This document shows, one piece after another, positions 3,801-43,900 of a stretch of DNA of 64,000 nucleotides. The stretch is from Halichondria panicea (Eukaryota > Porifera > Demospongiae > Suberitida > Halichondriidae), in contig NC_087383.1 of the NCBI RefSeq assembly GCF_963675165.1, positions 4,990,979-5,054,978 on the forward strand, written 5' to 3'. The notes below the pieces were generated by a model that worked only from the letters and a program-made list of their open reading frames with translations, did not search any database and had not been told where the DNA came from. The first letter of the stretch is position 1; each line of letters starts with the position of its first letter. The position numbers and the translations under genes are program-made.

Positions 3801-4654
3801 TGCGAAATACTAGATGTGTATATAGACAATGTACATCTACTGCTCCCTCACCTGATGGCGTTGAGCCCCACTCGCTCGTTTTCATTCTCTGTCAACTCTG
3901 GAATGAGAGAAAGGTGACTAATTTGAACTGATGCCCATCCAAATTGAAAAATGATGATCGGAATGGAAAAGTAGATGACTTTAATGTGTATTGGAGTCCC
4001 TTCAGTGTTACCAGCATTGTCAGAGTAGGTATTATCATTACAATTGGATGACAAATTTGTGCCATTTGGATTGCTCACTCCATTTGTGCAAAACAAACAA
4101 TTGTGCCAAAAGAAGAAAAACGAGATTGCAACCATTATGGTACCAACCAGATGCCAGGTTTTTCTGCGCCCATATCGTGATCGGGTTTTATCACAGAGGA
4201 ATCCTATGACTGGGGTAGCAGCGGCATCAGCTACTTGTCCAATGAGCAGTATTATACCAGCATATGTGTTGTCTATTTGGAGTACAGCATGGAAGAACAA
4301 CAGGAGGTAAGTGAACCACATGCTGGCACATAGATCGTTAAACACATGGCCAAATCCATAAGCACCTTTGCGAACAATAGATAAGTGCTGATGACTAGCA
4401 ACAGGCACGGAATCAACACCTTGGACTGAGTTTACTCTGTGTGGCTCCATAGGCTCCACTGAGCCATTCTTAGGCTCCACTGAGCCATACCTAGGCTCAA
4501 CAGAGCCATATCTCGACTTTGATGGGGGCCTGGAAGGCAGGAGAGGGGGAGGGCTAGTTGGTGTCGGTTTACTGTCAATGCTGGAACCATCCAGGCTCTC
4601 TGTATAGCCAGGAGGGGGAGAGTTTAGACTCGGATTGGCCTTCAGACTATCCAT
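884..4654 (-). CDS. MFSD12: MFSD12-like major facilitator transporter
   Basis: Multi-pass membrane transporter of the MFSD12 group, which in vertebrates acts in lysosomes/melanosomes (cysteine import); substrate here is inferred. Exons on the minus strand: 4654-3852, 3760-3643, 3440-3282, 2309-2217, 1856-1764, 1649-1609, 1552-1408, 1243-1137, 1020-884, all phase-consistent. The first exon has a Pro/Ser-rich cytosolic N-terminus with a triplicated GSVEP phrase, then the first helices and the MFS loop motif [12 protein letters not shown]. Later exons give [19 protein letters not shown] and [15 protein letters not shown], both typical of MFSD12. The exon ending at 884 stops at a good donor (GTACGT, phase 1), so a last exon lies further left; a possible one (about 737 down to 660) follows an ATTATAG acceptor but is not certain. 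It is divergent from the oxygenase gene. Confidence 0.88.
2506..2704. mobile_element. MITE family C, copy 1
   Basis: A ~200-bp inverted-repeat element in an intron of the MFSD12-like gene. Left end taccatatagcgggt, right end acccgctatacagta. Subterminal text about tttcg/cgaaa also mirrors. Related copies lie at 17146-17313, 36118-36320 and 46358-46675. No coding frame. Confidence 0.65.
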
Positions 4655-4880
4655 GCAGTACAGTTTCGCACGCTCAAACGATGACTTTTGACTGAGGCAG
4701 AGTAATAATTACTGTTGCCTGTATTTATAGTCTAAATCACATGACCTATTAGATCTAATTACTCTAACCTCATGATCATAAAGTTTATGTTTAGACTATA
4801 ATTATGAAAAGTTCAAGTCTTGACTGTTGACATTCCAAAGCAGAACATTCTTCGGTTTCAATATCTGGATTTCAGGGATC
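4655..4880. promoter_or_regulatory. Bidirectional gap between divergent genes
   Basis: Only 226 bp separate the start codons of the MFSD12-like gene (minus) and the oxygenase/F-box/actin gene (plus), so both promoters and 5' leaders must lie here. The stretch is AT-rich; there is no TATA box that I would trust. Shared regulation is inference from the spacing. Confidence 0.5.
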
Positions 4881-7800
4881 ATGGGAAACGTCGCCGGTCA
4901 TGGTCAGGCTGAGGAAACAAAAGTTCTAGTGAAGCCTATGCTGACTACAGCTCAGAAAAACTTCAAGGATGGTAAGCTAGAGCATAGATACTATCTATGG
5001 TAAGAGTGTTAACGTTTCCAAATTTTCTTTCTAAAATTTGAAGCCCTCTGTTGTATATAGATCCTACACTTACAAAATAGTTATAGGCCGAGTCCAAAGT
5101 CTGTACCGTACTTATTCGATTTAAAGCGACCCTCCAAATATGCGACACCCTCGATCTTTTCCAATTTTCTGACCTCTAAAAATAGCGACTGCAGTGTTCA
5201 CAATTATTTTTTTATGTCGCGTCCTAAATAGAGGTCAAACCACAGCCTCGATTCCAGGCCGCAAGAAACAATGTAATTTAAGCGGCCTATAATCGAGGAC
5301 AGTAGAATAACCTCCAATTAGATGCGACCCTCTAAATATGCAACACCAGGACTTCAACATAATTGTTCAACCTCCAAAAGAAACGACCTCTGGCTTCGTA
5401 ATTATTTTAAAGTGTCGCTTTAAATCGAATTATATCCCGTTGCTACGTTGTTGCCAAGTGCAATATGAAGCATATTGCACTGCTGAAAGTCATATTGCAC
5501 TGACCGCAAAGTCATATTGCACTGACCGCAAAACGCCCCTCTGGCAATTAGACAGACAATTAAATTAAATTAATACGCATGAGAAATAACAAGTATCAAA
5601 GTATGTCCAGCCATGCAGGAATGAATGTTCAGCACTGCTGAAGTTTCTTCTTGCAACCATGCAGGTTTTAAAATTGTCCAAGATTCATTTTATGGAAGAT
5701 TCTGTGTTCCTAGATCGACCTAGTCCTCGACATCGTGACGCATGTCAATTCTGCTTCACCGTAGCACTAGAAGTGGCTCTTTTTGCTGGGGGCATGAGCT
5801 GTTTTGCAGCAGTGTAGAAGCGATCTTTCTTGGCTTGGTTATGAGGCCGAGCGTAGACCAGCAGCTATTCACTGAGTAGTGGGGTGGGGCTGTTTCTTTG
5901 CAGCAGTAAGTGGGGCGGGGCTGTTTTGCAGCACCAGAAGTGGGGTGGGGCTGTTTTGCAGATTTCAGTTGAAACTCCAACAATTTTGTGTCAAGCCATT
6001 CGTCGGTCATGCCAAACTTATACGCTGCAGATACTGGCGTCTAGAAGAGAGAAGAGATGGAGCTGTGTCTAGAGTTGTCTCTGTCTTTTTTTGTGCTGTT
6101 TATATTGTGTTACTAGGACAGTGTTATGTTGCTATGCCCTTGGGATATAAACTAGTTATAACACGTGCACTCGGGCTGCATGGCATATATTGCACTCAGC
6201 CCTCGGGGCTGGCGCCCTCGTGCTTCAGTGCAATATATTCCATACATCCCTCGTGCCCGTGTTATAACTATAACTAAGTGCGGTATGCTAAATTCAGAGA
6301 CCAGAAGGCCTGAGGGTATCTGAAGATTATTGATTATGCCTACAGGCCTCTCACGTGCACCAAAAGACTAATTAATAACAAATCTATTCGACTATAATAT
6401 TATATATACATGTATATAGGAGCTCTCTCTAAATCAACAACCGGATGCAAAATGCGCTACTGCAGAGACTAGGTCGGATTTTGTGGCAGTCAAACGCTAG
6501 TTGAGCATAATTAAGTCTCCTACAGATGCTCAGGAGCTTCCTTGGTCCCACGTGTTCTTTTCAAGCTCTAGTTCGCATACCACGCCCTACCTTTCCCTTT
6601 CCCTTTGCGTTGCCTAAATCAGCTATAGGCCTCGTCTACGGCGTAGATACCATTAGACGAGGCCTATAGCTGATTTACGTATCTGATAATAGATCTCCGT
6701 AGAAGACCTCTGAATGTCTGACTGAGAAAATAATGAACCTCTCAGTAACTAATCAGATTGCACCATTATTTTACCCATAAGTCAACAGTGCAAAGCCTCC
6801 AAGCCATATTGCTGCAATTTGAATGTGGCTGCTACTCTACGGTAAAAAGACATCTAAAGCTAACTCAATTCTCTGTTCAATTTCTGGTGCCTTTATTTTA
6901 TTGGTAGCAATACAAAAAGACTGAATTGCAGTTTCAAACTATAATTATATGCCCATCTAATCTAGATGTACATGGACAGCACCATGACCATTACCCTGTA
7001 CACACACCATGCAGTATCACACCCTAGCAGTATTACGTCAGGTAAGGACAGGCCCAAAGTGACCAGAGAAGATCTCGCAGTTCCTGGAGCTCAGTGCTTC
7101 CTCCTTCATGGACTGCTCACTGAAGCCGAATGTGATCACTACATCACAGAGACTGAGAAGATCGGTTATTCTGACATGTCTGACGTCTTCCCTACTGATT
7201 ACCGTAGCAATGATCGCGTCCTATCCATTTGTGACCCTCTTGCTGACGAACTGTGGAACAGAATTGAGCCGCTTATAACGCGCAAGGAGGTTATTAGAGT
7301 AAGGCCTATGGGCTTTGGTAATAAGGGAACATGGAAGCCTTTTCGTGTAAACGAGTGCTGCAAGTTTGGGAGATATTCGTAAGTGAATTAGTATTAATGA
7401 TTATTCAGAAAAAAACTTTCAATTCTGTTTTAGGAGAGATGGTCACTTTTCCCCTCATATTGATGGTCCGTGGGTTCCTCGCGAAGACGAGAGCAGCATC
7501 TTCACTGTGGTCATCTATCTGAATACACTAGACTCCATGTATCAGGGAGGAACTACGAGATTTTTATATGAAGATGATTCAAGTAAGTTAGTTGTAGCAG
7601 AGTAATTTATAACAAGCCTATAATAATTTACACTGCATTTTTAGCAGATCGACCTATTGTTGTAGTGTTGGCTTTCTATATATACCGTACCAACTCTATC
7701 CCTCCTTTGTTTCGCTTACCCCTTGGTTTGCCAGTAATCATGCACTCTTGCATTGTTTAATTCCACCAGCTGCACGAGGACTTCTGACTGTAGCCTACTA

Positions 7801-10513
7801 GCGCACTTATATGACTGGCGCCTTTCATGCTGTGTTTACAGGCAGAGTGGCCGGCTATGTGACTCCAAGAGCAGGAACAGCATTGATATTCAACCATGAT
7901 GCTCTGCACGAGGGAGAGCCTGTTACTTTAGGGGTGAAATACATCATACGCACTGAGATAATGTATCGGAGAGTGGACACGGAGATGCTTTCCAATCTTG
8001 GAAACTACCAGAAGGAGGAGAGTTACATAAAGACACTCACCCTCTACCAAAAGTCATGGGAGCTGGAACAAGGTCAGTTCCTATATTTTGCTTGTCCAGA
8101 GTAACTAATAACTTTATCTGTCACAGTGGGAGATGTGAAAGGGTTCACGGACACCTATCTCCAAGCTATCCAATTACAGAGACAAGCCCAGCGAAGCATC
8201 TCTTCTGAATCCAGTGCCACTGGTGATATTAATCTGTTATTGCCACATGAACTTTACCTGACAATCTTTGCATTTCTAAAACCAAAGGAACTGTGCACAT
8301 GCATGATAGTGTGCAAGGTTAGTTGTACTCATAAATCTATACCTGAAAAATGTTCACATTTCTATCAAAAACAGAGTTGGTATAACATTTGTATGGACGG
8401 ACAGTTGTGGTATGATTTATACCGGAGGAAATGGCCTGTAGGTATCAACTTGGAGGCTACTATCAACCCTAACAAGCCAGCACTGAAGGTATATAGACTT
8501 TATTATTTCAGTCCAAGTACGATTTCATGTGTTGCTTATATATCTTAACATTTTTGCGTGCAGATCACGGATGAGAGACCTTTCTTGAGGGACTGGTTCG
8601 GCCATTACAAACAACGAACTTTAATGAAACAGCCACAGAAAGTAGTAGTAATTGACATGGGAAGCTTCTCATTTAAGTGTGCTGCCCTCCATAGGGCCAA
8701 GTCAACCATTAGGAAGTGTTGCATTGAGTCAGTAGTTGCCAAGGTAGGTGCATCTATTACATGCATCGAATTCTTTTGTATGCATGAATTCCTCTCTTTC
8801 TGAAACACTTTTGGTGTGCTGAGATTTCTGTTAACTATTCCCTCTAAACACTAGGTCCCTGGAGCATGTGACATACATATGCGTCGCTTTTTCTATGAGC
8901 GGTACTTTTGTGGAGAAGAAGCACGAAATGGTTTTCCTGGTCAGACTGTTGATCTTGTAGTTGGAGGAAAGCTAGTCAATACTCAAATGATCCCAGAGGT
9001 TGTCACAGGACTGTTCGTGGACTGTCGCGTGAGACCAAAGTACACTCCAGTTATCATCTTAGAGCCTCCGGGTCTCTGGTCGAGGAAAACTAGGCTGGAG
9101 CTTGCCGAAATCTTTGTTAGAAGATTCTATAACCCTAGCATCTGTTTCCTCAGTTCTGCTGTGGCAGTATTGTGCAGGTAATTGTTCACCCTGCATTATC
9201 TTTGCATAATAGAGTGTGTGTCGTACATCTATCAATTTCTACTTTAATTTTCAGCTTGGACCTCCAGTGTGGTGTTGTGGTGGATGTAGGTCATGGTGTT
9301 GCTACCTCTTCAGTTGTGTGGAACAGAGAGATGTGCAACAGTGTTGACTGCTCTCCGAGTGAGGCCACACCAGAGAAACTAGCAGGCTTGATTGAAGGAG
9401 TGATACAAAAATTCACCAAGGATAAAGCAACAATTTCCGTACTCAGGGGTCTCGTGGTACTAACAGGTATAGATATAGGCGTGTATATGTGATGGTGGTC
9501 CCTACTATGTCACAAGTTCACGTACCCAATACATCTACAGGTGGAAAAAGATGTTGTAGTGATAGTCTTCAAAAGGAGTTGGCTAAAAGTGATTCAAATT
9601 ACAGAGTGACAGTACCAGGTTTGTAATACCTACTGGGAGCTTGCAGAATATTTTTGTGACCACTGCACCAAGTGACATAATATATAATTATGATTGTCTA
9701 CGACTGCATGTGCTTAAAGTAATGCAGTGTGTGGGTATTGATATGGCATTTTAATCTTTTTATGTTTCTACATGTGTAGTTGATGTTCAGTATGCGGCTG
9801 TACTAGGAGGTTGCAGTGTGGGTAATCTGTCGGGCTTCCAGAAAGTTTGCAAATCTGAGCTACACCAGCTTCATGAAGATTCAAAAGCTATTCCTAGAAA
9901 GCGAATGAGAAGTGTCTTCTTTTATGATTGCCCGATTTTGTATTGGTACAAGCTTCTCAATGGAGGAAAAGCGTCTATGTTGGTACGCGCAATGGGAGTC
10001 ATACATCATCTATATGTGACTTGCACTAACCTCTACATTGTCGTTGCTATTAATTCTCTATGTACACATGCATGTACAGTTAGTGTGTGAATTGAGTATA
10101 GCAGTTAAGTCAATTCCTAATGGTACACCCCTGCATGTATGTATGATTAGGCCTGGTCCATATCTACTGACTTTCTTGGCTGTTATTGTACTAGCTATAA
10201 TGCCTATAATATGCACACATACATGTACTGACGCTAGAGATTCTCAACATTTTTTTATAGAAACGAGGCACTAAAATCAGATGTCTGGCATCTCAAAGAA
10301 GTACTAACCACGCATTTCTAGCAAAAATTTACCTGTAAAATGCAATGTGTATATTATGTAACAACAAGTAATTCTTCGCCTGCACAGAAATTACTACATC
10401 ATGCATCTGAACAGGAGCGCCATGATTGGAAGGAAGACGTTGCTGAAGATGAACTATTTGTTGAGGGGGAAGACGTTGCTGAAGATAAACCATTTCTTGA
10501 GGAAGAATATTAA
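4881..10513 (+). CDS. 2OG-Fe(II) oxygenase / F-box / actin-like fusion
   Basis: Twelve exons, all phase-consistent, give 745 residues: 4881-4971, 7042-7378, 7434-7582, 7842-8072, 8127-8317, 8375-8488, 8564-8743, 8855-9179, 9255-9466, 9541-9618, 9780-9983, 10388-10513. Residues ~45-235 are a prolyl-hydroxylase-like double-stranded beta-helix: HID at 151-153, distal His215 in LHEGEPV and 2OG-binding Arg229 in KYIIRTE. Residues ~305-354 are an F-box (LPHELYLTIFAFLKPKEL, then LWYDLYRRKWP). From ~398 the chain is actin-like: VVVIDMGSFSFK (phosphate 1), PVIILEPP, CGVVVDVGHGVA (phosphate 2), LVVLTGG and YAAVLGGCSVGNLSGFQKV. The tail is acidic with a repeated EDVAED. An alternative last exon (10261-10338) also fits the phase. 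Expected roles are protein hydroxylation, Skp1 binding and nucleotide binding; the combined function is unknown. Intron 1 (2 kb) is full of repeats. Confidence 0.85.
5104..5430. mobile_element. MITE family A, copy 1
   Basis: Inverted-repeat element of about 330 bp in intron 1 of the oxygenase gene. Left end TACCGTACTTATTCGATTTA, right arm GTCGCTTTAAATCGAAT; the shared inner phrase is atttaaagcgac. The inside is itself nearly symmetric (gcgaccctc, aatagcgac, gaggtc motifs). A second copy in opposite orientation lies at 17830-18166. No coding frame. Confidence 0.7.
5459..5532 (+). repeat. Short tandem repeat
   Basis: Two and a half copies of a ~23-bp unit containing catattgcactgaccgcaaa, just outside MITE A. 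A second unrelated run of three ~30-bp units (ggggtggggctgttttgcag) occupies about 5877-5960. Both are intronic and look like local slippage. Confidence 0.6.
6153..6270. repeat. Long imperfect hairpin (foldback)
   Basis: About 118 bp that fold back on themselves: left arm begins TAGTTATAACACG, right arm ends CGTGTTATAACTA, and CATATATTGCACT is mirrored nearer the tip. It lies in intron 1 of the oxygenase gene. A similar CACTCGTGC-rich foldback occurs at 35243-35365. Confidence 0.7.
6616..6676. repeat. Perfect 23-bp hairpin
   Basis: Arms at 6616-6638 and 6654-6676 are perfect reverse complements (AAATCAGCTATAGGCCTCGT then CTA), separated by a 15-base loop. In RNA this would be a very stable stem in intron 1 of the oxygenase gene. 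Confidence 0.85.
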
Positions 10514-10707: not shown

Positions 10708-13081
10708 TCATTCTGAGCTAGAGACAAACTCCTCCATTCTTTTCTTGTCCATTCTAATCGTCAGCCACTCTCGCAAACACTTTCCCCCGATACGCTCGTA
10801 CAAATCTAAGGCTTTAGTATTCCAGTTAAGCACCTGCCACACCATTCTTTGACAGTCTCTAGTCTTGGCCACCTGCATGTGTGCAGGTTAACGAGAAGCT
10901 ATATATAGCTACTTGCAAAATTTCTTTATTACCTTGGCACATTCTCTCATCAAAGCTGTACCAAGACCAATATCTGATAGTGTTGGAGTGAATATCAATA
11001 ATTGTCAATAATTATTGTCTCACTTCTGTATTGCTGTCTTACGAATACATCCTCTAGATATAACACTCGTCCCTCCCAAGTAGAGTAGTTGAAGAAGTAG
11101 AGAGCATACCCGACGAGTCTCTCATTCTTCACCATCTTTGAGCTTCGCAAATCAGGTGGAGACGTACTTTCTGCATGGGAGATGAGCTATATGTAGTTAT
11201 TGAATTCACTATAACTCATGAGATGTCACTATTATGTAGTACATTCAACTTTCTTGCGACAATGTCGGGTTACATGTACCGTACCCTCGACTCGCAAAAA
11301 TATGCGCCCACCACCCGTTTCTGCAAGAAGTCTAGGCTTATTAGAGGACTGGACGTTTAACCGCGAATGGCGAGTTTTCATTCGAATATAGGCCCACAAA
11401 TCGAGGTTGACACTTTGCTCTCTGACAGTTCTTTATTAATAGTATGAACATTTCATTGACAACAACAATGTTATAAACTAATGCATGAGTATGCATGATT
11501 AAAAGCATGACAAGGAATGAACATGAAGAAGTGGACCCTGACTCTATTCGTTGCTTGTCGATGTCAGATGCAGAAACTTCCCAAAGGTCATACTCCTACA
11601 GAGCAGCTATATCAGGTACAAAAACCAAGGCAAGGTAACCTGCAAAATTAGCCTTGTGATAACTTTCTTGGATTTTGTGTTTTCCTTTCTCAGCATATAG
11701 GACTACTTGTTCCCTGCATATATATACATCTTCAAGGGCAAACAGATCCATGCAGAGAAAGTTATATGTCTGATCTTGGTCCCACATGCAAGGAGTATAG
11801 TCTACTCTTACTAGCTACTACCTAAAACTTCCTTTCTTCAATACAATTAATGGTGAACATGTGGCATAGACTGGAAACCACTCTCTTCGCTCTGGGGACT
11901 GGAAAGTTGCCGTGTTGAGAATTATCCAGAACAAACCACAAAATGTGTAATGCGTGGGTGATATTATTTCAGCTTCGATAACAAACTAGCTGCCAGTGAT
12001 GTACTTATACTCGAGGCCGATAATATTTTGCGCCAATAATAGTTAGCATGTGGGCGGTGGCTTGAGTATTAATTTTGTGACGTTTACATTATTGTGGCAG
12101 CGTGACATTCTTCACGCACTGGGACAACTCTCAACACGGCAGCTTGCCAGTCCCTTTCTCCCGAGAGAAGGGGAGTGGTTTCCAGTCTATATGTGGCATT
12201 CAGCTACTGCACATGCTCAACTCTTTATTCTGGGTGGGCTTATAATCGAGTGAAAATACCCTCGTGCAAGAACTTCGAAGGGGATGGGCATATATTCAAG
12301 ATGAGCTTATTTTCGCAGGGTACGGTATTATTATAGGTTGGATCAGGTTCAAGTTTCTACAAAGCTACCGTATAATCTGGTTAGTAAGCGCATGCGCCTA
12401 TAGTGAAAAGAGGCCTCTATGCGCCTATTATCCAGATGCGCTTATACAACCACACCCATGACGTTTCAATGAAGCAAATCTCCATTAGCTAGCTCGATCG
12501 TTTGTCTGCAAGAAATCTATGGCCATATCTGACAGCAGTAACACAACTACTGGTAGAAGAGACTTAACATCTATAAAGAAGTGTGTATAGACCAGTTATT
12601 GGGCAGAGAACTGTGCAGAAAACCATACGCCTTCTATCAAGGCTCTTGGTCTGCTAACCAGTATGCGCTTATTAACCAAATTATACGGTATTATAATTGT
12701 GCTCATACATAATAATACTTAGCATGCATGTACCTTGTGGAACAGAATTTAACTCCGCCACCAGTAAATGGAAAAACTTCTCATCCCCAAACCCATCTCG
12801 TAAAAGTTCTGGGGAAAGAAACGTTGTGATTATCGCCACGCAAAAGTTTTCATTTTAATATTGCCTCAGTATTAAACCTCACCTTTCTCCCCAATCTTCA
12901 AGGCACAGGGTTCATTTTCATACTCAGCCAAGAGCTATTTAGAATGAAAGGGTCTATCTTATAATTATTAAATGATATTGCTTTAGGTAGCTCCCACCTG
13001 AATCATCCACAAGACACTGGGAATGTCTTCTGCTCTTGCTGGTCTGATGGTAACTGTATCTCTCCACAAATTTGAAGCCAT
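10708..13081 (-). CDS. Diamine/thialysine N-acetyltransferase-like (SAT family)
   Basis: A 187-residue GNAT acetyltransferase in six exons (minus: 13081-12998, 12934-12883, 12808-12734, 11170-11024, 10973-10933, 10872-10708), all phase-consistent; vertebrate SAT1 is 171 residues. Conserved SAT landmarks are LLRDGFGDEKFFH, RLVGYALYFFNYSTWEGR, LYLEDVFV, the acetyl-CoA loop YRNIGLGTALM, and the C-terminal LNWNTKALDLYERIG. The family acetylates polyamines or thialysine with acetyl-CoA in the cytosol; which substrate is used here cannot be told. The extra N-terminal residues are MASNLWRDT. The third intron (11171-12733) holds family E and other repeats. Convergent with the oxygenase gene. Confidence 0.9.
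12366..12690. mobile_element. MITE family E
   Basis: A 325-bp element in the large SAT-gene intron. Left end TACCGTATAATCTGGTTAGT, right end reverse-complements to TACCGTATAATTTGGTTAAT; both continue into aagcgcat. Inside there are further gcgcctat repeats. No coding frame. Confidence 0.75.
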
Positions 13082-14732: not shown

Positions 14733-17700
14733 ATGAGATTGAAGCTCCTCTTTGCAGCTATACTGGTGTGTGTACTGCCTTATGTTGCTTGCCAGACAGG
14801 GTGAGTTTATAAGAAATATTAAATATTGTATACTGAGTATCTACAAGTTACGTTTATATTCTATATACAGAGTGTGCTATGGACGGACCTCTACCCGGAG
14901 GCGCTCTGTCACCTACAGTCAGGGGCACTATAGTACACAGTATAACTGTGGGTGGTGGGGTTGGGGTAGATGTCAAAGGTATGGACTATAACTGTGTTGA
15001 TGTACTGGCACTATATCTAATATGTTTTTTCAGGGCGCATACTAGACGAAATAGCCGAGAGACTTACTATACTGTGTATATGAGTCAAAGAAAGTGCTGT
15101 TCTGGTTACAGAGATGTTCGGGGGCGGTGCATGCGTAAGTTCATACCGTATAGAAGATTCTCTGTGCCAAATCCTAGAAATGTTCATAACCAACAAATTT
15201 TTTAATTATACTAACTGAATAGGACTCGTTTGATTACCATTAATTACACTTCATGTAGCTGTGTGCAGCTCTGGCTGCTACAATGGTGGCACCTGTATTT
15301 CTCCATATACCTGCTCGTGTGCTCGAGGTTGGATAGGAAGGAGTTGCTCACAAGGTATGTAAACACCATAATTATATCGTAGCTAATAATTTTTGAGGGC
15401 CAATATTTTTGTGGATTTCGTGGATTTCACCGTGTTCAATAAAAAACAAAACAGCTATCCTATGCAAAATTCATAAAAATAACCCTCCTACTATACGTAT
15501 GTTGTGGAGTTCCTTCATATACCCACCACACTGTTATAACGGTGCCTGATACTAAAAGATGGCTTGTGAATATTATTTTGTGAACACAATCGTTGCCATT
15601 ATCAGGTGCTGAGAACAGCACTGCCTGTAGTAATTAAGTTCCTTAAGTGGAACAATACTGCTTGTTAAAACTAATTTACCGGAATTCATTTCACAATGTA
15701 CCTGAAAGCCTTACTAGTGGAAAGGCAGCCAGTAAGTTCTTTAAGTGAACAATACTGTTTAATTGTTCACTCTAATTAATGAGTAAACTAATTTACCGGA
15801 ATTCATTTCACAATGTACCTTACTAGTGGAAAGACAGCCACATATCTGTGCATTAACACATGACATTCTAGCTTGATTTAAAGGCCTGAAGTTAAGGCTA
15901 TAGGCGCATGCCCCCCATGACATTTTTAGACAATCTCAGATCAGTGTATAAGAGCCTAAGGGTGAACACAGAGCTCCCTCCTAAAAGAAGCCCTGATATG
16001 TGTGATAAGAACCGGGTCCAACAGTCAGTAGCCAAGAAACCCAGTATTTTTGATAAAATATTGTTTCTGCATGAGCTTAATTGAATTTGTTTAACGATCG
16101 AATGTATGTTTTATTGTTTGGGAAGTAGCTGTGAACGAACTATAATTATAAGCCTATAATAATTATTGTTCCACAGAATGTAAGTTACAGTTGACATTGT
16201 AATAATTACAGACACCTCACTGATACAATGCTGTACGTATACAGATATCAATGAGTGTACAAATGGACAGAACAACTGTGGAACTATACAATACTCAATA
16301 TGCCAAAATACCAATGGAGGATATCGATGCAACTGCCTCTTTGGGACCTCCAGTGCTCGCCCATGTACAGGTTCGCCCAATTAATTGGCATGTAAATTTT
16401 ATCTACAGTGAATGTACAGTTCCACCAAACCCTTTATCACCCCGGAATTTCCGAGTGTCATCCTTAAGCAGTACATCGGCTACAGTGAATTGGCAAGCTC
16501 CAGTTATGCAAACAAATAACGGAATATCTGGGTACAAGCTGGTTTTGAGAGAGCAAAAGTTTGGACAACGAGATGTGACTAAAAATGTTGCTGCAAACCG
16601 TCTATCGTATGCATTCTCTGGACTAGAAGAATTCAATACCTATGAAGTACAAATCAAGTCAGTGAGTGTTTTTACCTTCGAGTCATCTCTCGTATCTATC
16701 TCATTGACAACAATGGAAGCAGGTGTGTGCATACAATCGTATTGTATAAATGAGTATTTGGCATTGTGTCAATACTATACACATTATTTTAGATGGTCTC
16801 ATGTCAGTATATTATTATACACGTACACAGCACCAGCATCACCTCCTGGCTCACTGTCTGGCAGCAGTCATGGTTCGAATGCACTCTCCCTTTCTTGGAG
16901 GTCTGTGTCCCCTATAGATATAAATGGCCGACTGAATTGCTATGAGATTGACATAATGGAGGTGGAGACTGGGCGACAGTTTCAAACTACTTCATCCTCC
17001 ACTGGCAAAACGATAGTCTCTCTTCATCCCTACTATGTTTACAAGTGTAGAGTGGCCGCGGTAACCATTGCAAGAGGGCCATACACTCAGTACATCAACA
17101 TTAGAACTGATGAGAGTGGTGAGTTACTAAGAAATTGTATACTGAATAGCGCGAAACTTTTGGGGGTTTAATTTTCACTGTTTTCGAGGGTTAGCAATTC
17201 TACGAAAAATTTTCACCGAGCACAGCTAGTGGCAGATACAATGTCATTGACAAGTCGCGATTTATTCATTTCTACATAAATTAAGTTCCTCAAAAATTTC
17301 GCGCTATACCGTAATTTACTTCCACAAACCTTCAAATTTGCAGTTTATACCAGATAGATTTATGTATACTATTTACAATTATTTTGGGTTCAAAAATTGC
17401 ATGGATATCATGCATATAGAGTCCCAGCGATGCACTTAGTTCCTATTCCTAAATGTATAGCACCAAGTGCGCCCCCGGGGAATATTCAAGCCACCGCTAC
17501 TACTACATCTATAACAGTCACATGGGTTCCACCTGACTCTACCTATCGCAATGGTATTATTCGTCGATATAAACTTAATCTCATTGAGAACGAAACAATG
17601 ACCCACTACGAGAAAGAGTACACTGGAACAAGAGCTGTTATTGTAGGGAAACATCCATTTTACACATACCACTTCAATATCTCAGCTGTAACAGTTGCTG

Positions 17701-20700
17701 CTGGACCATACAGTATGCCAAATGTTATCAGACTCCAAGAAACAGGTAATAATAATAATTACAGTAATAATAAGTACAGCAACTTAAATTAAGCAGCGAT
17801 CTGTTAACGGTAACGTAGAATTTGTAACATACCGTAATACCTTGATTTAAAGCGACACTTTTTACGAAACCAGAGGTCGCTTCTTTTGGAGGTTGAAAAA
17901 TTATATTGAAGTCCTGGTGTCGCATATTTATAGGGTAGCATCTAATTATAGAGGTAACTAGCTCTACAGAGTCTACTTGTCTCGATTTCAGGCCGCTTAT
18001 AAACACTGATTTTCCAGTGGGCTACAATCGAGGCTGGGGAGTAGCTACATTTACGAATGCGACATTATAAAAAATAATTGTCAACGCAGCTGTCGCTATT
18101 TTTAGAGGTCAGAAAATTGCTGAAGCTCCAGGGTGTCGCATAATTATAAATCGAGGTATTACGTTACACCTCATAAATGATTGCTATGTTTACATTAGTA
18201 GGTAATTAACAGTTTAACAGTATAATATAGTTATCGACTCTCGACTTATACAGCTCCAACAGCTGCACCTCAGTTTGTCAGTGGTATTGCAGTTAATCCG
18301 ACAACAATCTCTCTCGAATGGTCTCCTCCCCCAAAACAACACTGGAATGGTATTATTCGAAGGTACAAAGTCAGTGTTTTGGAGAGAGAGTCTGGCTCAA
18401 TACTCGAAGACTCCACAACTCGACTCACAACAACTATACAATCACTCCATCCAGATTATAGCTACGTATGTAAAGTTGCTGCAATTACTGTTGCTGAGGG
18501 CGTTTATTCCAGAACAGTAATAGTTTCAACTCCTATCTCAAGTAAGAAAACATCTATATGCATGAAAGGTCTTATCATGTAACGTTTCAGCCCCCAGTGC
18601 ACCACCAAGGAACATTGATTTGACACCACAAGGTCCTCGTACCTTGCTCATAAGTTGGGACCCACCACTGCTTGAGAATAGAAATGGTCCAATCATCGGA
18701 TTCACAGTGAACATTACAGATAGTATTGGACACATTCAAGTGCACACAACCAATACAACTTTACAGCAAAGATCGCTTTACCCATATACAACCTATAGGG
18801 TATTCATAGCTGCTATAACTGAAGTAGGAGCAGGTCCATACAGTGTTGCAAGGGAAATTGAAATGCCTGAAGATGGTAAGCGATGTTGAATGTGTGGTTG
18901 TGCATATTCTAATTTATTTGGCCTTTTGCGTGCAGTACCGTCTGAGCCTGTTCATCCAAGTGCAACTACTGTCATCGGAAATCCATATCAGTTGGCAATT
19001 ACTTGGCAACCACCTCTTGAGCCCAATGGAATTTTGACCGTCTACAATATATACTGTCTGCCAACTCTTGGTTATGACATGAAAGTCATTACTGTTGGAG
19101 CAAGGATCAATCATTCCAGCCTGTTTCCTGGCCTCAGACCATACACTGTGTACAACTGTTTCGTTTCGTGCAATACTTCAGCAGGAGAAAGTAACGTTAG
19201 TCAATCTGTTTCTGCCAGGACTGACGAGTCAAGTAAGTTGGAACGTACCTATTTGTATTTTATATGATTGTACTTAAATGCAGCTCCAGAAGATGCACCC
19301 AATCAACTTGCAGCTTTTTCCAACATATCCGATACCATTTCTCTAAGCTGGAAGGAACCAACCATTCCAAATGGGCCAATTATTTCATACACTGTGACTC
19401 ACAATGAGACAGACACGAACGTAACACAAGTGGTTGTTGACTCTACTCAGCTTGAAATAACAGGATTAATACCATTCACTTTCTATACAGTTATTATATA
19501 CGCTTCAACAAGAATTGGTGATGGGCCTTCTGCGTCAACAACAATACAATCTGCTGAGTCGAGTAAGTTTATTGATAATTATTTCAGTGCATGTATAAAC
19601 TAATATTTACCTTCATAATTATAATAGATCCTGGCGCTCCACCTCAAAACATTGCTGTTTCTGTCGTTAGCTCCACTAACACTGTAGTGTCTTGGCTTCC
19701 TCCAGACCCGGAAAATAGAAATGGAATCATAACACATTATAGGATTGTGCTTACAGACGAGGACTTTAATGTCAGTGGGGCTATCATTACAGTTACCGGC
19801 ACAAAGTATACCTTCAAAACCCTTGAAGAGTTTGTTAGATATTCCTTTACGATTACTGCTGCTACTAGTGCTGGATTGGGTCCATTTTCGGAACGTCTTA
19901 ATTTTACAACGTTTGAAGCTAGTAAGAACACAATCACTAACCTGAACCATTACATATAACTATACCTAAATTTTTGCAGTCCCTTCCGCACCTCCCCAGT
20001 CTGTCCACGGTGTTTTTCACTCCTCAACAGTAATACAGTTTTCTTGGTCACCTCCACCTCCTCTGGATGTAAATGGCGTAATCAAGTATTATGTAGCTGA
20101 AGTGACAGAAAGGTACACAGGAAAATCATGGACTTTCTTTGCTGTGGACTCTCTGGTATACATTGGCTCTCTCCACCCTTACTATCTATATGACTGTGCT
20201 GTTGCTGCCCATACAATCGGAAGTGGTCCTTACTCGGACACTTTGACAATACAGACTGATGAGGAGGGTAGGTTAACAATAAAAACACACACACTAAAAT
20301 GAGATTAATCATCGTTAACTTATGCAGCCCCAAGTGTTTCTCCTACTATTTTGACCGCATCAGTTACATCTCATTCAATTAGATTATCAGTATCTCCACC
20401 TTCATTCGAGAGCACCAATGGTTTGCTAAGATACTATTCAATGAGTGTAGTTGAAACTAAAACTGGTGAAGAGTATGTTGTAGTTTCGGCAAACACGACG
20501 ATTACTATGATCAGTGGACTACATCCAGATTACACCTACATCTGTTCAGTTGCTGCGTACACAATTGGACTTGGGCCTTACAGCGACACAATAACAGTGA
20601 CCCTTGAAGAAGCAAGTAAGTACCTTATAGGGGGTATAAACTTTTGCGGAAAGACAGTTAATTTTTGCGGAATAGCAGCCTTTTTGCAGCATGCATACAT

Positions 20701-23700
20701 GCGATATTAAATCCGTAGGTATAAATCTTCGCGGTACATGCTTAATATAAGCGAAAACCGCGAACATTATTCAATATCTGCATAATTATGTACGACTGAT
20801 ATTGAATGTACTCATTCTGTTAATATAATTGTATCTAGAGCCAACAGGACCACCATTGAACATATCTGGATACTCAACTGGATCAGAAAGTATACACGTA
20901 ATGTGGGGTCCACCATTATCTGAGTTACAAAATGGAGCAATACGATATTACATTGTGTCTGTCACTGAATTGAAAACAGGAGCTTTGAGGAATCACACAA
21001 CCTCCACTGCAGAGATTAACATAGCCTCTCTCCATCCATACTACAGCTATGCAATCAATGTAGCTGCTGCGACCATTGGCCCTGGGCCATTCTCCACTGA
21101 AATCACAATTCAAACGGAGGAAGATGGTGAGTTTAATCAGTAGATCATAACTATTGGGTCTAAAATCGTATATTTATCTGTATAGTTCCGACAGCACCAG
21201 CTGGGAACGTCACAGTAGTTGCAGTATCTTATAAATCAGTCGAGTTGTCGTGGGACCCTCCGCCTCTTGAACATCAGAATGGAGTAATTATGGGATATAA
21301 TGCCACAATCGAAGAAACAAAATCAGGGAAAATATTCACAATTATTGTGCACAGTCCAAACGTGATAGTGGAAAGCTTGAAAGCACACACTACTTATGAA
21401 GTCACTGTGACATCTTACACTCTGGTTGGCGCTGGTCCAAGAAGCAGAGGACTTATTGTCACAACTGATCAGACAGGTATAACAGCTTGCAGAATTTATT
21501 ATAATCGTAATCTTGTAGATCTACAATTGTAGCAGCACAAATTTGCATTTCAGTTGCTTTATCGCCATAGTGCCAATTGCAACTCATGGCGAGGCTAACA
21601 TTACGGTAATGTGCAGTCTATAGGACTTCAACTAGATCGTCCATTGATTACCACAGACCCATACATGCGTGTTGTGCAATTCAAAATGCTATCTAATAAT
21701 CTAATAATTATTATTTGCAGCACCATCATCAGCTCCAGTGAATATGACAATTTCAGATATCAAATCTACAGAATTTCTGCTCACTTGGACTGCACCACCG
21801 TATGAATCACACAATGGCATAATTACTGAATATGTAGTCAACATCACAGAAGTGGAAACTGGTGACATGTACAAACTTGTCTCACAGACAGCGTCCATCA
21901 TAGTTCAATCACTCCATGCATTTTACTCTTACGAGTGCACTGTGTCTGCAGTAACTGTTGCGGAGGGGCCATATACAGAGGCGGTCACTGCCAGAACGCT
22001 GGAAGATGGTATGTGTGATACTCTGTTTATAGCTTCACATAATTATTGATTTGCAATAGTTGTATTTGCAACATATACGTTTTTTGTATAGCTCCAGATG
22101 GATATCCAAAAAATGTGTCAGTTGGAAACATCAGTTCTGAGTCAGTTATTCTCACTTGGGATCCTCCTCAATATTCAGAGAGGAATGGAGTGATAAACCG
22201 TTACGATATTAACTTGACTGATGCTGAACTGGAAACAATAGCTCAGATTGTTACTACTTCTGCTTACATTGAGATTTCTAGTCTAAGTCCCTTTACAACC
22301 TACTTTACTTTTGTGTCTGCTTCAACTAGTGCTGGAATGGGTCCATTTGGAACTTCTTTGTCATTTACAACACTAGAAGATGGTGAGCTGTGTGTACAAT
22401 GTGTGTGGTGTGTATATGATAATACTATGATGTTGACAATACACGCGCAGCACCAGCATCAGCTCCAACACTCCTCTCCAGTAATGCGAGTGATTCAAAA
22501 ACCATTTATCTTTCTTGGAGTCCTCCAAAACCAACCTACCACAATGGAATTATAAGGGAATATCATACTGAGATCCTTGAAGTTGAGACAGGCATGATAT
22601 TCTACCACATCACTTCATCTACCTATATAAGAATATCCTCACTTCACGCTGACTACACATATGAATGGTCTGTAGCAGCAGTGACGGTTGCTGCAGGCCC
22701 TAAAAGTTACACAGTGAGTGTAAAAACTCCTGAAGATGGTAAGTGGCTAAGTGTACAATAGAAGAAAAACACGGGCCTGACCATTGGTGTAAAAGGAATT
22801 GTTGGCGAGATGTTTAAAACTGTTGTTGTTCTTTCCTGTAGTTCCGACTGGGTACCCACAAAACATTGAAGTAACTAATGTTACTACGACCATGATAGAT
22901 CTACAATGGAACCCACCACTCACTCATGAGCAGAATGGGGTAATCACTGGGTACAAAATTAAGGTTCAGAAAATTGAGACCAATTCAAACTGGACTACTC
23001 TCACCACTGAATCGAGGACGGTATCTATCACCCAATTAGAAGCTCACACTGTGTATATGATAGTAATCGCAGCAACAACACTACCAGGAGGAGGCCCATA
23101 CAGCCCTATACTGACTGCCCTAACACAAGAAGATGGTGAGGGGATATCATATTAAATTTTGATTTAGTGGTTAAACCAGTAAGTTTCAATATGGAAAAAA
23201 AATCTCTGTCTTACAGAATTCGTGGCATTGTTCATTACGAACACATCACCACAATTATCACCTTAATTTTTCAGCTCCTGACAGCCACCCAACTAATCTA
23301 ACTGGATACTCAATCAACTCCACCTATATTTTCTTGGACTGGGATCAACCACCAGAGGAGAAATTAAATGGAATTTTGAGGCAATACAAGATTAACATCA
23401 CAGAGGATATCACTGGGAAAAGATTACAATTCATAACGGGACCATACCCCACGGAAATAACTGTTGGTCCTCTTCACCCTGATTACACATACCACTGCAC
23501 AGTAGTAGCATACACTGTAGGAGAAGGTCCACATACCAGCATTCTACCAATACGCACTAAAGAGGATGGTGAGTCCGGTATTGTCATAACGCTCACGCAC
23601 CATTCTTTAAAATTTGGTTTTGGTATTTTTATTATATTTAAATAAAGAATTCTTATAATTTTAGTCATATACTGTTCCTTTGTTCCCAAGGTTCCTTATA

Positions 23701-40900: not shown

Positions 40901-43900
40901 CAGCATAGAGTTTTATTGTAGGTGATGTCCCATTTCTGGGCCAGTAGTGAGCTCAGGCGTTTGTAGAAGAGTGATGCTTCTACGCCCATGCCTCCTGTAA
41001 CGGATAAAACTAATGGTGTGAAAGAGGAGTGTTCAACTTCGTTCGTGTTTCTGTATGTTGCTGCATGTGACTGGTTTCTGTTGGAGGGGGCGAGGGGGTT
41101 GAACACTCTCACATCAAGGTATGTTTTTAGAATCTTCCCCCCCCAGACACCATTGGCCGATATATCCAAACGTGCGTTTTCTTGGCTGTTCGCTGAGGCC
41201 CCGTTGAGTTGGTCCGCGCTCACAGGTTGTAGGTTGGGCTCCACACACACTTCACTGCATACTTCCGTGAGAAGGGATGCTGTGGTATCTCTTATTTCGT
41301 TGTGCCTTAACGTTCCTAGGAAACCCTCCTTTGGCACAGGAGAGGGCATGCTCCACATTGAAGTTTTTGCCACAGTTGCATTTGGAGGGCAAGCGAGTTG
41401 GGGTCCAGCCATAGCGTAGTGCCAGGGCATCTTGGAAGGCCGACTTGTGTAGTGTGAATCCATGTTCCGATAGTGGGAGAACCGTGAGCCAAGTGGAGGC
41501 TCCTTTTGTCTTGGATAGCTCCACTGCCTTCTGGAGCCCGTCCGGTAGCTGTTGATGTATAGAGGCTGTGTCTTCTTGTCTGTTCCTGTTGTCCTTACTG
41601 ACCTCTCTTTTCTTCAGTTGCTGGTCACGGACTATGTTATATCCATATTCATTGTCTTGAGCTAGGATGTGGTCGGTGAGGGATGAGGTGACTGTGAGAG
41701 AGTGGTGCAGTTCCTTGTCCGCTAGCTTGGAGGGGATAGTTATTGCTAGTCCGCTGAGCCGAGCCAGTAGAGCGTATAGGTCGCATTCAACACTGTTTGG
41801 AGGTGGTCTTCCCGTAATGGCTGGTATCAGTTTAGTTCGAAGTGTGTTATCCAGTGGGACTAATAGGTGGCTCAAGTTGGGTACGACCCGGCTGAGGTAT
41901 GTCCATTTACTTAGGAGGCCATGGGTAATGGCTGAGTAGGCGGCATGTGGTTGCGACTTTGCTATGTTACTGAGGGTGTTGATACTAGATGACCACAGTT
42001 GTACCTTAGTGTTCACGTATTCAGCAATGTATTCACGGGAGCCAATCGCTGCACCTAGGTATGGTCTGCCTTCTGGCGTGACGTTGACTCCAGACCCAGC
42101 GAAGATGTTGGTGGCTCGGTCATGGTGGTTTTGCTTTGTGACAAGCCAGGTTTTAGACGGATTAGGGAAGTAACCAAAGGCAGGACCTATTGCTGCTAAT
42201 TTGTTCCACCAATCATGTAACTGCCCAATTTTCCCTATTGCCGCAGAGTCGTCCGCATACCAGACCTGTTTGCAGAGTCCATCCAGTTTCCTAATGATAG
42301 GGATAGTTGCTAGTCCGTACATATAGGCATGGCCAGGGGGTATCCTTGTGTAGTACCTTCTTGGGATAGGATAACTTCTCCATCAACAAAGAGCTCAGTG
42401 GAGTTTCTATAAGAGTTAATGAGGGTGGCAATAGGTGGGCAAAGGCGTCTGATGTTCTGTAGTGCTACCTGGCGATTAAAATACGGTATTAATTGGAGGA
42501 ATAAAGAAAGAAATAGACGTAGAGTTAGGAAAAAGGAGAGCCTGTATCGGGAAGTCACGTGAAGGTAGAAGGGTGAAAATGAGCGTGGGCATGCTGAGCT
42601 AGAGATGTTGGACTGCCCACGCAGAGATCTATGACTAATAAAACTTTACCTGCAGCAAGCTGGACATGGACTTGGAACTGGAAGTTTGCAAGCACTAGAG
42701 CTTAGCTAGATGATCTACTAGTCGAGATTGTGTGTTCAGATTCTATCCTATCAGACTACTATCACCTATTCTTGTGTCTTTCTACATGCTATAGTCTATA
42801 GTATAGATAAAGTCATCATTATCATATATAGCAGGTAGCTACTGCCACCAGAGCTGGCCACGCTGGTTCTCTGATCTGACTTGCAGCACAGCTTTAATTG
42901 TCTCAGTATAGTCTTATTAACTCTGAATGCGTGGGAGAATACCTTACGTCACGATTGTGGGCTACATATTGCCCACGTTCATAAAAATCCTTGTGGATCA
43001 CGCGATTTCCCAAACCAGGCCTTACTTTTTCTTAACTGTACGCCCATTTATTTCTTTGCTGCCTCACTACGTCTTATGATTTATGGATGAACAGTGACAA
43101 CAGCAAGAATGAAAGCACCGCGGGTGCTGATGCCTCGGTGGAGGTGCCAAAGCTACATAACATAAAACTACTAATAGCTAGCATTTATACACACATTGAT
43201 TATAATTATCATGATGAACTTTGCTGCATGCAATCAACCGAATAGTGGGTAATGATCAACCATGATTGTTGTTAAAAAGGATCGATGCCAAAAGTTCAAG
43301 TCTAAAATTATGGCTGCAAGTCAGCAGAACCTTGCAGCTCTCTGCTCACTCTTGCAGCTACCAATAGCTAGCGTTCTAATGCATAGCTAACTACTAAGTA
43401 GAGTAGTAACACTCGGTGAACAAGTTTTGCTACGGACTCTTCTGAAAAGGCTGCAATAGCATTCCAAGTAAGCAAAACTAGGTATATCTCGAGAACGAAG
43501 CATTATTTTGCAAATCCACGAATTAAAATCCAAGTAAACATGACTAGAAGCCTATAGAAACTCTTACTTGCACTTGATTCATCCTTGAGCAGCTGTAGCG
43601 GTCTACACACACACACACACAGACACACTACCGTATACCTCGCTTGCGCATGCGCACCGAGGCATAAAAAGTAAGGCCTGGGAACGAGGCTACTATATAA
43701 ACTTACACTTCCAACTGACACTTGAGACCATATTATGGGACACAGTACACCGATGAGTTGCACAGTCTTAGCTATTATTAGAAGCATTCTAGGTATATAA
43801 AGATCTCATAGCGTGACAAAGAATGTTTTGTGCCTCTAGCTATCTTCACAAATGTATTTTTTTTTCCAACTGAAGCTCACCATTAGGGGGCATGAGAATG

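Follow-up and report, generated by a model that had tools for sequence, protein, structure and literature searches.

The window, the 64,000-nucleotide stretch of Halichondria panicea DNA analyzed here, contains a gene that is predicted to encode a 2-oxoglutarate (2OG) oxygenase of the prolyl 4-hydroxylase (P4H) superfamily, an F-box and a reduced actin-like fold in one polypeptide. As read from its DNA, the gene is one conserved three-domain fusion. We lean toward the interpretation that its product is an SCF substrate receptor that carries its own hydroxylase in the same chain, for which we infer Skp1 binding, enzymatic activity and a client.

The gene occupies positions 4881-10513 of the plus strand and consists of 12 exons, all with GT donors and AG acceptors, that join into one predicted frame of 744 residues plus stop, confirming the claim of an earlier note on this DNA that twelve exons keep one frame. 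The ATG is the first to follow an in-frame TGA at 4821. Exon 1 (4881-4971), which ends in a GT donor, encodes a conserved N-terminal segment (VKPMLTTAQKNF) that is also present in a paralog. The first half of the 2OG oxygenase domain is encoded by exon 2 (7042-7378), the HxD iron ligands H151 and D153 by exon 3 (7434-7582), and the end of the domain, with H215, K225 and R229, by exon 4 (7842-8072), in which a helical, TPR-like linker begins. This linker continues into exon 5 (8127-8317) and is followed there by the first part of the F-box, the remainder of which shares exon 6 (8375-8488) with a post-F-box linker. Exon 7 (8564-8743) carries a conserved linker, DRPFLRDW..YKQR, and the actin-like phosphate-1 loop IDMGSFSFK (residue 401), and exon 8 (8855-9177) carries actin-like sequence that aligns from actin residue ~53 until before the phosphate-2 loop. 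That second loop, VVVDVGHGV (residue 546), lies in exon 9 (9255-9466) together with a short stretch that replaces actin residues ~169-292 and the start of the adenosine motif LTGG (residue 608), which is completed in exon 10 (9541-9618). Exon 11 (9780-9982) encodes the C-terminal part of the actin-like region, QYAAVLGG..FQKV, and exon 12 (10388-10513) an acidic tail and the stop.

When the whole protein was compared with Pfam, all three domains exceeded the curated cut-offs, so chance matches are not an issue. The domain 2OG-FeII_Oxy_3 (PF13640) covers residues 138-228 (E 3.2e-12), F-box-like (PF12937) covers residues 308-351 (E 4.4e-15; 55.6 bits against a cut-off of 24.3), and Actin (PF00022) covers residues 396-560 in two stretches (E 8.9e-14; 51.3 bits against a cut-off of 27). 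The same protein gave no Pfam match to JmjC at E values up to 1, and all NCBIfam matches to the 2OG domain were far under cut-off.

Such a variety of domains is unusual, and the model was read from DNA and not from RNA, so that two or three neighboring genes might have been read as one. However, the introns between the three domain parts measure just 54, 57 and 75 bases, and exons 4, 5, 6 and 7 each contain linker as well as domain sequence. In addition, searching the genome at the protein level revealed a second locus on contig C10, unlinked to the window gene, that has the same domain order and shares its introns. We therefore regard the gene as single, as the earlier note had proposed, and consider an artefact of this kind extremely unlikely; an arrangement of two separate genes was rejected on the strength of the short inter-domain introns and the unlinked copy with its shared introns. 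The C10 paralog has 13 exons and encodes 753 residues, with all three domains above the Pfam cut-off (F-box PF12937, E 5.1e-16). Nine of the 11 introns of the window gene are found at the same alignment column and in the same phase in the paralog. The other two, including the intron after exon 1, have equal phase and adjoin alignment gaps. An additional intron is present in the paralog.

Across 725 aligned codons the two predicted proteins are 56% identical, and the paralog is, by this comparison, a long-diverged copy. For the whole chain pN is 0.28 compared to a pS of 0.76, at which silent differences are saturated, and pN is also low in the linkers (0.21 and 0.29), a point in favor of selection on the whole chain, linkers included. 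Conservation is highest in the 2OG domain (74% identity, pN 0.17). Identity is 59% in the N-terminal actin part, with pN 0.28 versus pS 0.79, and the C-terminal actin part (residues 561-672) is the least conserved domain region and appears much less constrained, given its 33% identity, pN of 0.45 and pS of 0.62. Identity falls to 26% in the tail (residues 673-744). Within this acidic tail, the window gene also has a 36-nt in-frame tandem duplication (10433-10504, with copies starting at 10433 and 10469) that is not apparent by eye in the tail of the paralog.

The N-terminal domain had been described as prolyl-hydroxylase-like, and this description is borne out: by Pfam, by its best solved matches, which are bacterial P4Hs, and by its intact iron triad, the predicted oxygenase is a member of the P4H superfamily. 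An alignment of seven sequences, namely both copies, L006 (a stand-alone relative encoded in this genome) and four proteins from bacterial plasmids, shows no variation at H151, D153, H215, K225 or R229. We take H151, D153 and H215 to be the iron ligands (HxD...H) and K225 and R229 to be the downstream basic residues. The best solved matches of the seven-sequence profile (A4) are bacterial prolyl 4-hydroxylases (E 1.3e-13) and a viral collagen prolyl hydroxylase (E 4.3e-9), and Dictyostelium PhyA (6t8m) scores weakly against the same profile (E 0.075).

By sequence, the domain falls within a large family of bacterial 2OG-Fe(II) oxygenases that carry K[YT]xxR[TS][DE]xMY and whose frames, mostly 180-215 residues, are too short to accommodate an F-box or an actin domain as well. 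Within the genome collection, 484 of 501 pattern matches encode a relative, and 80 were kept. HxD and the distal H are present in 78 of the 80, and the full HxD..H..K..R arrangement in all 78 within the length limits, the remaining two (146 and 8 residues) having been left out for length; K and R formed part of the search pattern and are thus not independent in this set, whereas the iron ligands are. With the 2OG domain as the sole query, 11 plasmid records contained relatives, and one phage record had a 2OG match that was 26% identical. Among viral contigs, the alignments of the 2OG, actin and F-box parts gave 53, 65 and 47 pattern matches, respectively, and none was confirmed.

The stand-alone relative (L006:1898-2587, contig C15) is a single exon that is ~35% identical to the window 2OG domain, shows no F-box or actin match, and is possibly an ancestral or retro-derived form. 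Its structure was predicted from an alignment with the 55 bacterial relatives that remained, out of the 78, after removal of near-duplicates, and has a pLDDT of 88.7. In VIA-align, the best match listed for this model is an algal P4H (Z 18.2, rmsd 3.3, 181 aligned), human LH3 scores nearly as high (Z 17.6, rmsd 2.9, 182 aligned), and PHD2 and OGFOD1 are within ~2 Z units of the top matches. In these comparisons the L006 model has the double-stranded beta-helix fold, which it shares with PHD2 and PhyA, and prolyl and lysyl hydroxylases tie among the structure matches listed. Prolyl specificity is one possibility, and the target residue may be a proline or a lysine. Elsewhere in the genome, six exon-level matches to PF13640 were found, although introns may hide others, just as they kept the window gene itself out of this search. 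These six are L006 and five near-alike copies of another family (L094-L097, contigs C15 and C17), which on visual inspection we do not consider PHD. The five copies represent a family expansion, with frames of ~316 to 491 residues in four and an in-frame stop in L096.

The putative oxygenase could instead lack catalysis or play a regulatory role, as a pseudo-enzyme that senses cofactors within an otherwise ordinary F-box receptor. We consider this quite improbable, however, as both copies and L006 retain the iron ligands, K225 and R229, and as no other region is so well conserved between the copies.

The central F-box, LPHELYLTIF...VCKSWY...LW, follows a pattern that we regard as canonical. 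Among solved structures it matches KDM2A and KDM2B best, and together with the Pfam score this upholds the earlier assignment of an F-box to the protein. Upstream of it, residues 239-268 of the TPR-like linker match a designed TPR (E 3.7e-5), with no Pfam match to TPR in the linker. Downstream, the DRPFLRDW..YKQR segment between the F-box and the actin fold is strongly conserved in the paralog. The F-box part also has three weak matches (E 0.06 to 0.34), at C2:261420, C9:3749513 and C13:2183531, which probably represent other F-box genes.

An F-box would bring the enzyme to Skp1, and the genome has a canonical Skp1 gene on contig C11, with its last exon unlocated, as well as a further Skp1 match on C10. 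The C11 sequence reads KNDFSPEEEE compared to KNDFTEEEE in human Skp1, which places a proline at the position of human Glu147. In sections of PMC7864055, the corresponding residue (Pro143 in Dictyostelium, or Pro154) is the one hydroxylated by DdPhyA and TgPhyA, and human Skp1 E147P is a substrate for both enzymes. The idea of Skp1 hydroxylation raised in the earlier note is therefore strengthened to the extent that the genome's own Skp1 has a proline at the site hydroxylated in Dictyostelium, and such a modification is chemically possible. On this basis, the oxygenase might modify Skp1 itself at the Pro143 equivalent, making the fusion a self-delivered PhyA-like enzyme. However, plant SKP1-like chains have the same proline in 5 of the 5 alignments listed, so the residue is permissive and not diagnostic, and PhyA is a weak sequence match to the window oxygenase. 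Furthermore, PF11397, which we take to be the family of the Skp1 glycosyltransferase, had no match in the genome, in a search in which no control rang, so that absence is not established. Taken together, we consider Skp1 an unlikely target.

The actin-like part is recognizable but reduced. A profile built from two sequences matches actins at 1e-8, with the phosphate-2 region and LTGG paired with their actin counterparts. The phosphate-1 loop falls outside the local alignments of this profile; when compared ungapped with the genome's own actin, it keeps Asp11 and Lys18 at the same spacing, and the hhalign global alignment is gapped there. We assume actin numbering and roles for the aligned positions, with Gln137 and His161 taken as catalytic and the segment lost below taken to include subdomain 4. 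The Gln137 and His161 positions are occupied by Ser and Ser in the window protein and by Ser and Cys in the paralog, and the Asp157 position by His and Glu, respectively, with Asp154 retained. In both copies, actin residues ~169-292 are replaced by ~39 residues, such that ~85 residues are gone and subdomain 4 is removed. Gln137, His161 and subdomain 4, which characterize a conventional actin or ATPase ARP, are therefore all lacking. The earlier description of an actin/Hsp70-type ATPase fold is accurate in that the fold is that of actin and both phosphate loops are recognizable, but with subdomain 4 lost and both catalytic residues, Gln and His, replaced, the ATPase part of the description is not supported. 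The actin-like part is more plausibly a nucleotide-binding or purely structural fold, and it would represent a natural case of a reduced, probably non-hydrolyzing actin fold that is maybe used for binding.

Actin-like sequence is kept on either side of the lost subdomain 4, and the N-terminal actin part has changed far less at replacement than at silent sites between the copies. These features could reflect an oxygenase that targets actin or a protein binding to it, with the actin-like domain recruiting or mimicking this target, in a ligase that regulates the cytoskeleton. We nevertheless think this improbable, because nothing points to the identity of the client and the C-terminal actin part is the domain region that the two copies share least.

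Several known proteins combine some of these domains. KDM2A and KDM2B are animal proteins that join an F-box to a JmjC-type 2OG demethylase with CXXC, PHD and LRR. Their F-boxes are the best solved matches to that of the window protein, but the latter contains 2OG-FeII_Oxy_3 where KDM2A/B has JmjC. PhyA is a separate protein and is not known to be an F-box protein. Like the window oxygenase it belongs to the P4H superfamily, and part of PMC7864055 links it to SCF function, but given the weak sequence similarity it does not appear to be the nearest relative. The earlier note had placed the pairing of an F-box with a 2OG oxygenase in KDM2; the pairing is also found in Dictyostelium JcdI and JcdH (PMC9485057). 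According to sections of that report, JcdI (Fbxo13) combines an F-box with a JmjC oxygenase, binds Skp1 and has an activity limited by physiological O2, and its family is reported as absent from metazoa. The window protein resembles JcdI and JcdH in having an F-box and a 2OG/Fe oxygenase in a single chain. However, the oxygenase of JcdI and JcdH is of the JmjC type and follows the F-box, with no actin domain described in those sections, whereas that of the window protein is of the P4H type and precedes the F-box. The same sections state that deletion of jcdI, jcdH or both left O2-dependent development of Dictyostelium unchanged, and this calls for caution over claims of oxygen sensing.

The second precedent comes from plants. 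Arabidopsis SUSA2/ARP8 (At5g56180) has an F-box and an actin domain in one chain, so the suggestion that an actin-like module accompanying an F-box was undescribed does not hold; sections of the report on it (PMC7562919) place the pairing in the plant lineage only. They also describe that SUSA2 interacts with ASK1, that mutation of predicted nucleotide-binding residues did not abolish function, and that the actin part is proposed to bind clients. In both ARP8/SUSA2 and the window protein a C-terminal actin domain is preceded by the F-box. In those sections, however, ARP8/SUSA2 is described with F-box and ACTIN alone, whereas the window protein has a 2OG domain in front. The window gene would therefore be a case of an F-box-actin protein outside plants. 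The combination of all three domains appeared in no title or abstract opening found in open-licence PMC. F-box-actin and F-box-2OG pairings are thus already known, and it is the P4H-type oxygenase and the predicted three-way combination that would set the window protein apart.

The reading we favor, an SCF receptor with its own hydroxylase, draws on the three domains in frame, the conserved second copy, the intact 2OG residues, the canonical F-box, the proline in Skp1, the degenerate actin and the JcdI and SUSA2 precedents. In such a protein, the central F-box would dock on Skp1. The N-terminal domain would use Fe(II), 2-oxoglutarate and O2 to hydroxylate a residue of a protein bound within that complex. 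The C-terminal actin-like fold would bind proteins instead of hydrolyzing ATP and forming filaments; its role would probably be to bring in the client, as has been suggested for the actin domain of SUSA2/ARP8. Hydroxylation and ubiquitylation would then be coupled in one polypeptide, and degradation could follow the supply of O2, iron or 2OG. We counted against this reading that the substrate residue is unreadable from sequence, the tie between P4Hs and lysyl hydroxylases, the weak PhyA match, the presence of the Skp1 proline in plants, the lack of a PF11397 match (with the caveat on controls given above) and the weak constraint on the C-terminal actin part. Should it be correct, the fusion would provide a compact, testable system in which hydroxylation is coupled to ubiquitylation.

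Oxygen sensing by the window protein is possible. The more specific proposal, that it is an oxygen-gated SCF receptor of an early-branching animal, in which one polypeptide does the job of PHD and VHL and the degenerate actin fold reads the client, seems to us rather unlikely, if conceivable. In sections of PMC5800844, sponges and ctenophores are reported to be without EGL9/PHD and HIF orthologs, and VHL is reported in few demosponges only. Our own search of the genome gave no match to VHL (PF01847) or HIF-1 (PF11413), but no control rang and absence is therefore not established; Wnt gave 10 exon-level matches, which mark the genome as that of an animal, and atp9, sought as a mitochondrial marker, gave four uninformative matches. 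If the animal does lack the HIF pathway, the fusion would be a candidate for an alternative oxygen-dependent degradation route and would bear on how protein turnover is adjusted to oxygen.

Several other features were noted in the window. Intron 1 contains, outside the protein, a high-copy interspersed repeat of ~845 bases (5430-6274) with an imperfect inverted repeat (6153-6270) at its end. Among 1398 candidates, of which 40 were scored, it has at least 40 other long matches at 94-98% identity, and because of this high identity it was probably recently active. On the minus strand, a divergent neighbor with an MFS_2 match (3848-4708) has a likely ATG near 4654, ~230 bases from that of the fusion gene. 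A convergent neighbor, also on the minus strand (10708-11186), consists of two frames with GNAT acetyltransferase matches under the Pfam cut-off (18.0 and 20.6 versus 20.7 bits). Further along, a minus-strand open frame at 41252-42382 has no Pfam match up to E 1 and includes the stretch WYADDSAA, which we take to be a typical reverse transcriptase motif. Finally, two plus-strand frames at 16224-22555 contain fibronectin type III domains above cut-off and perhaps form a single repeat-rich gene.
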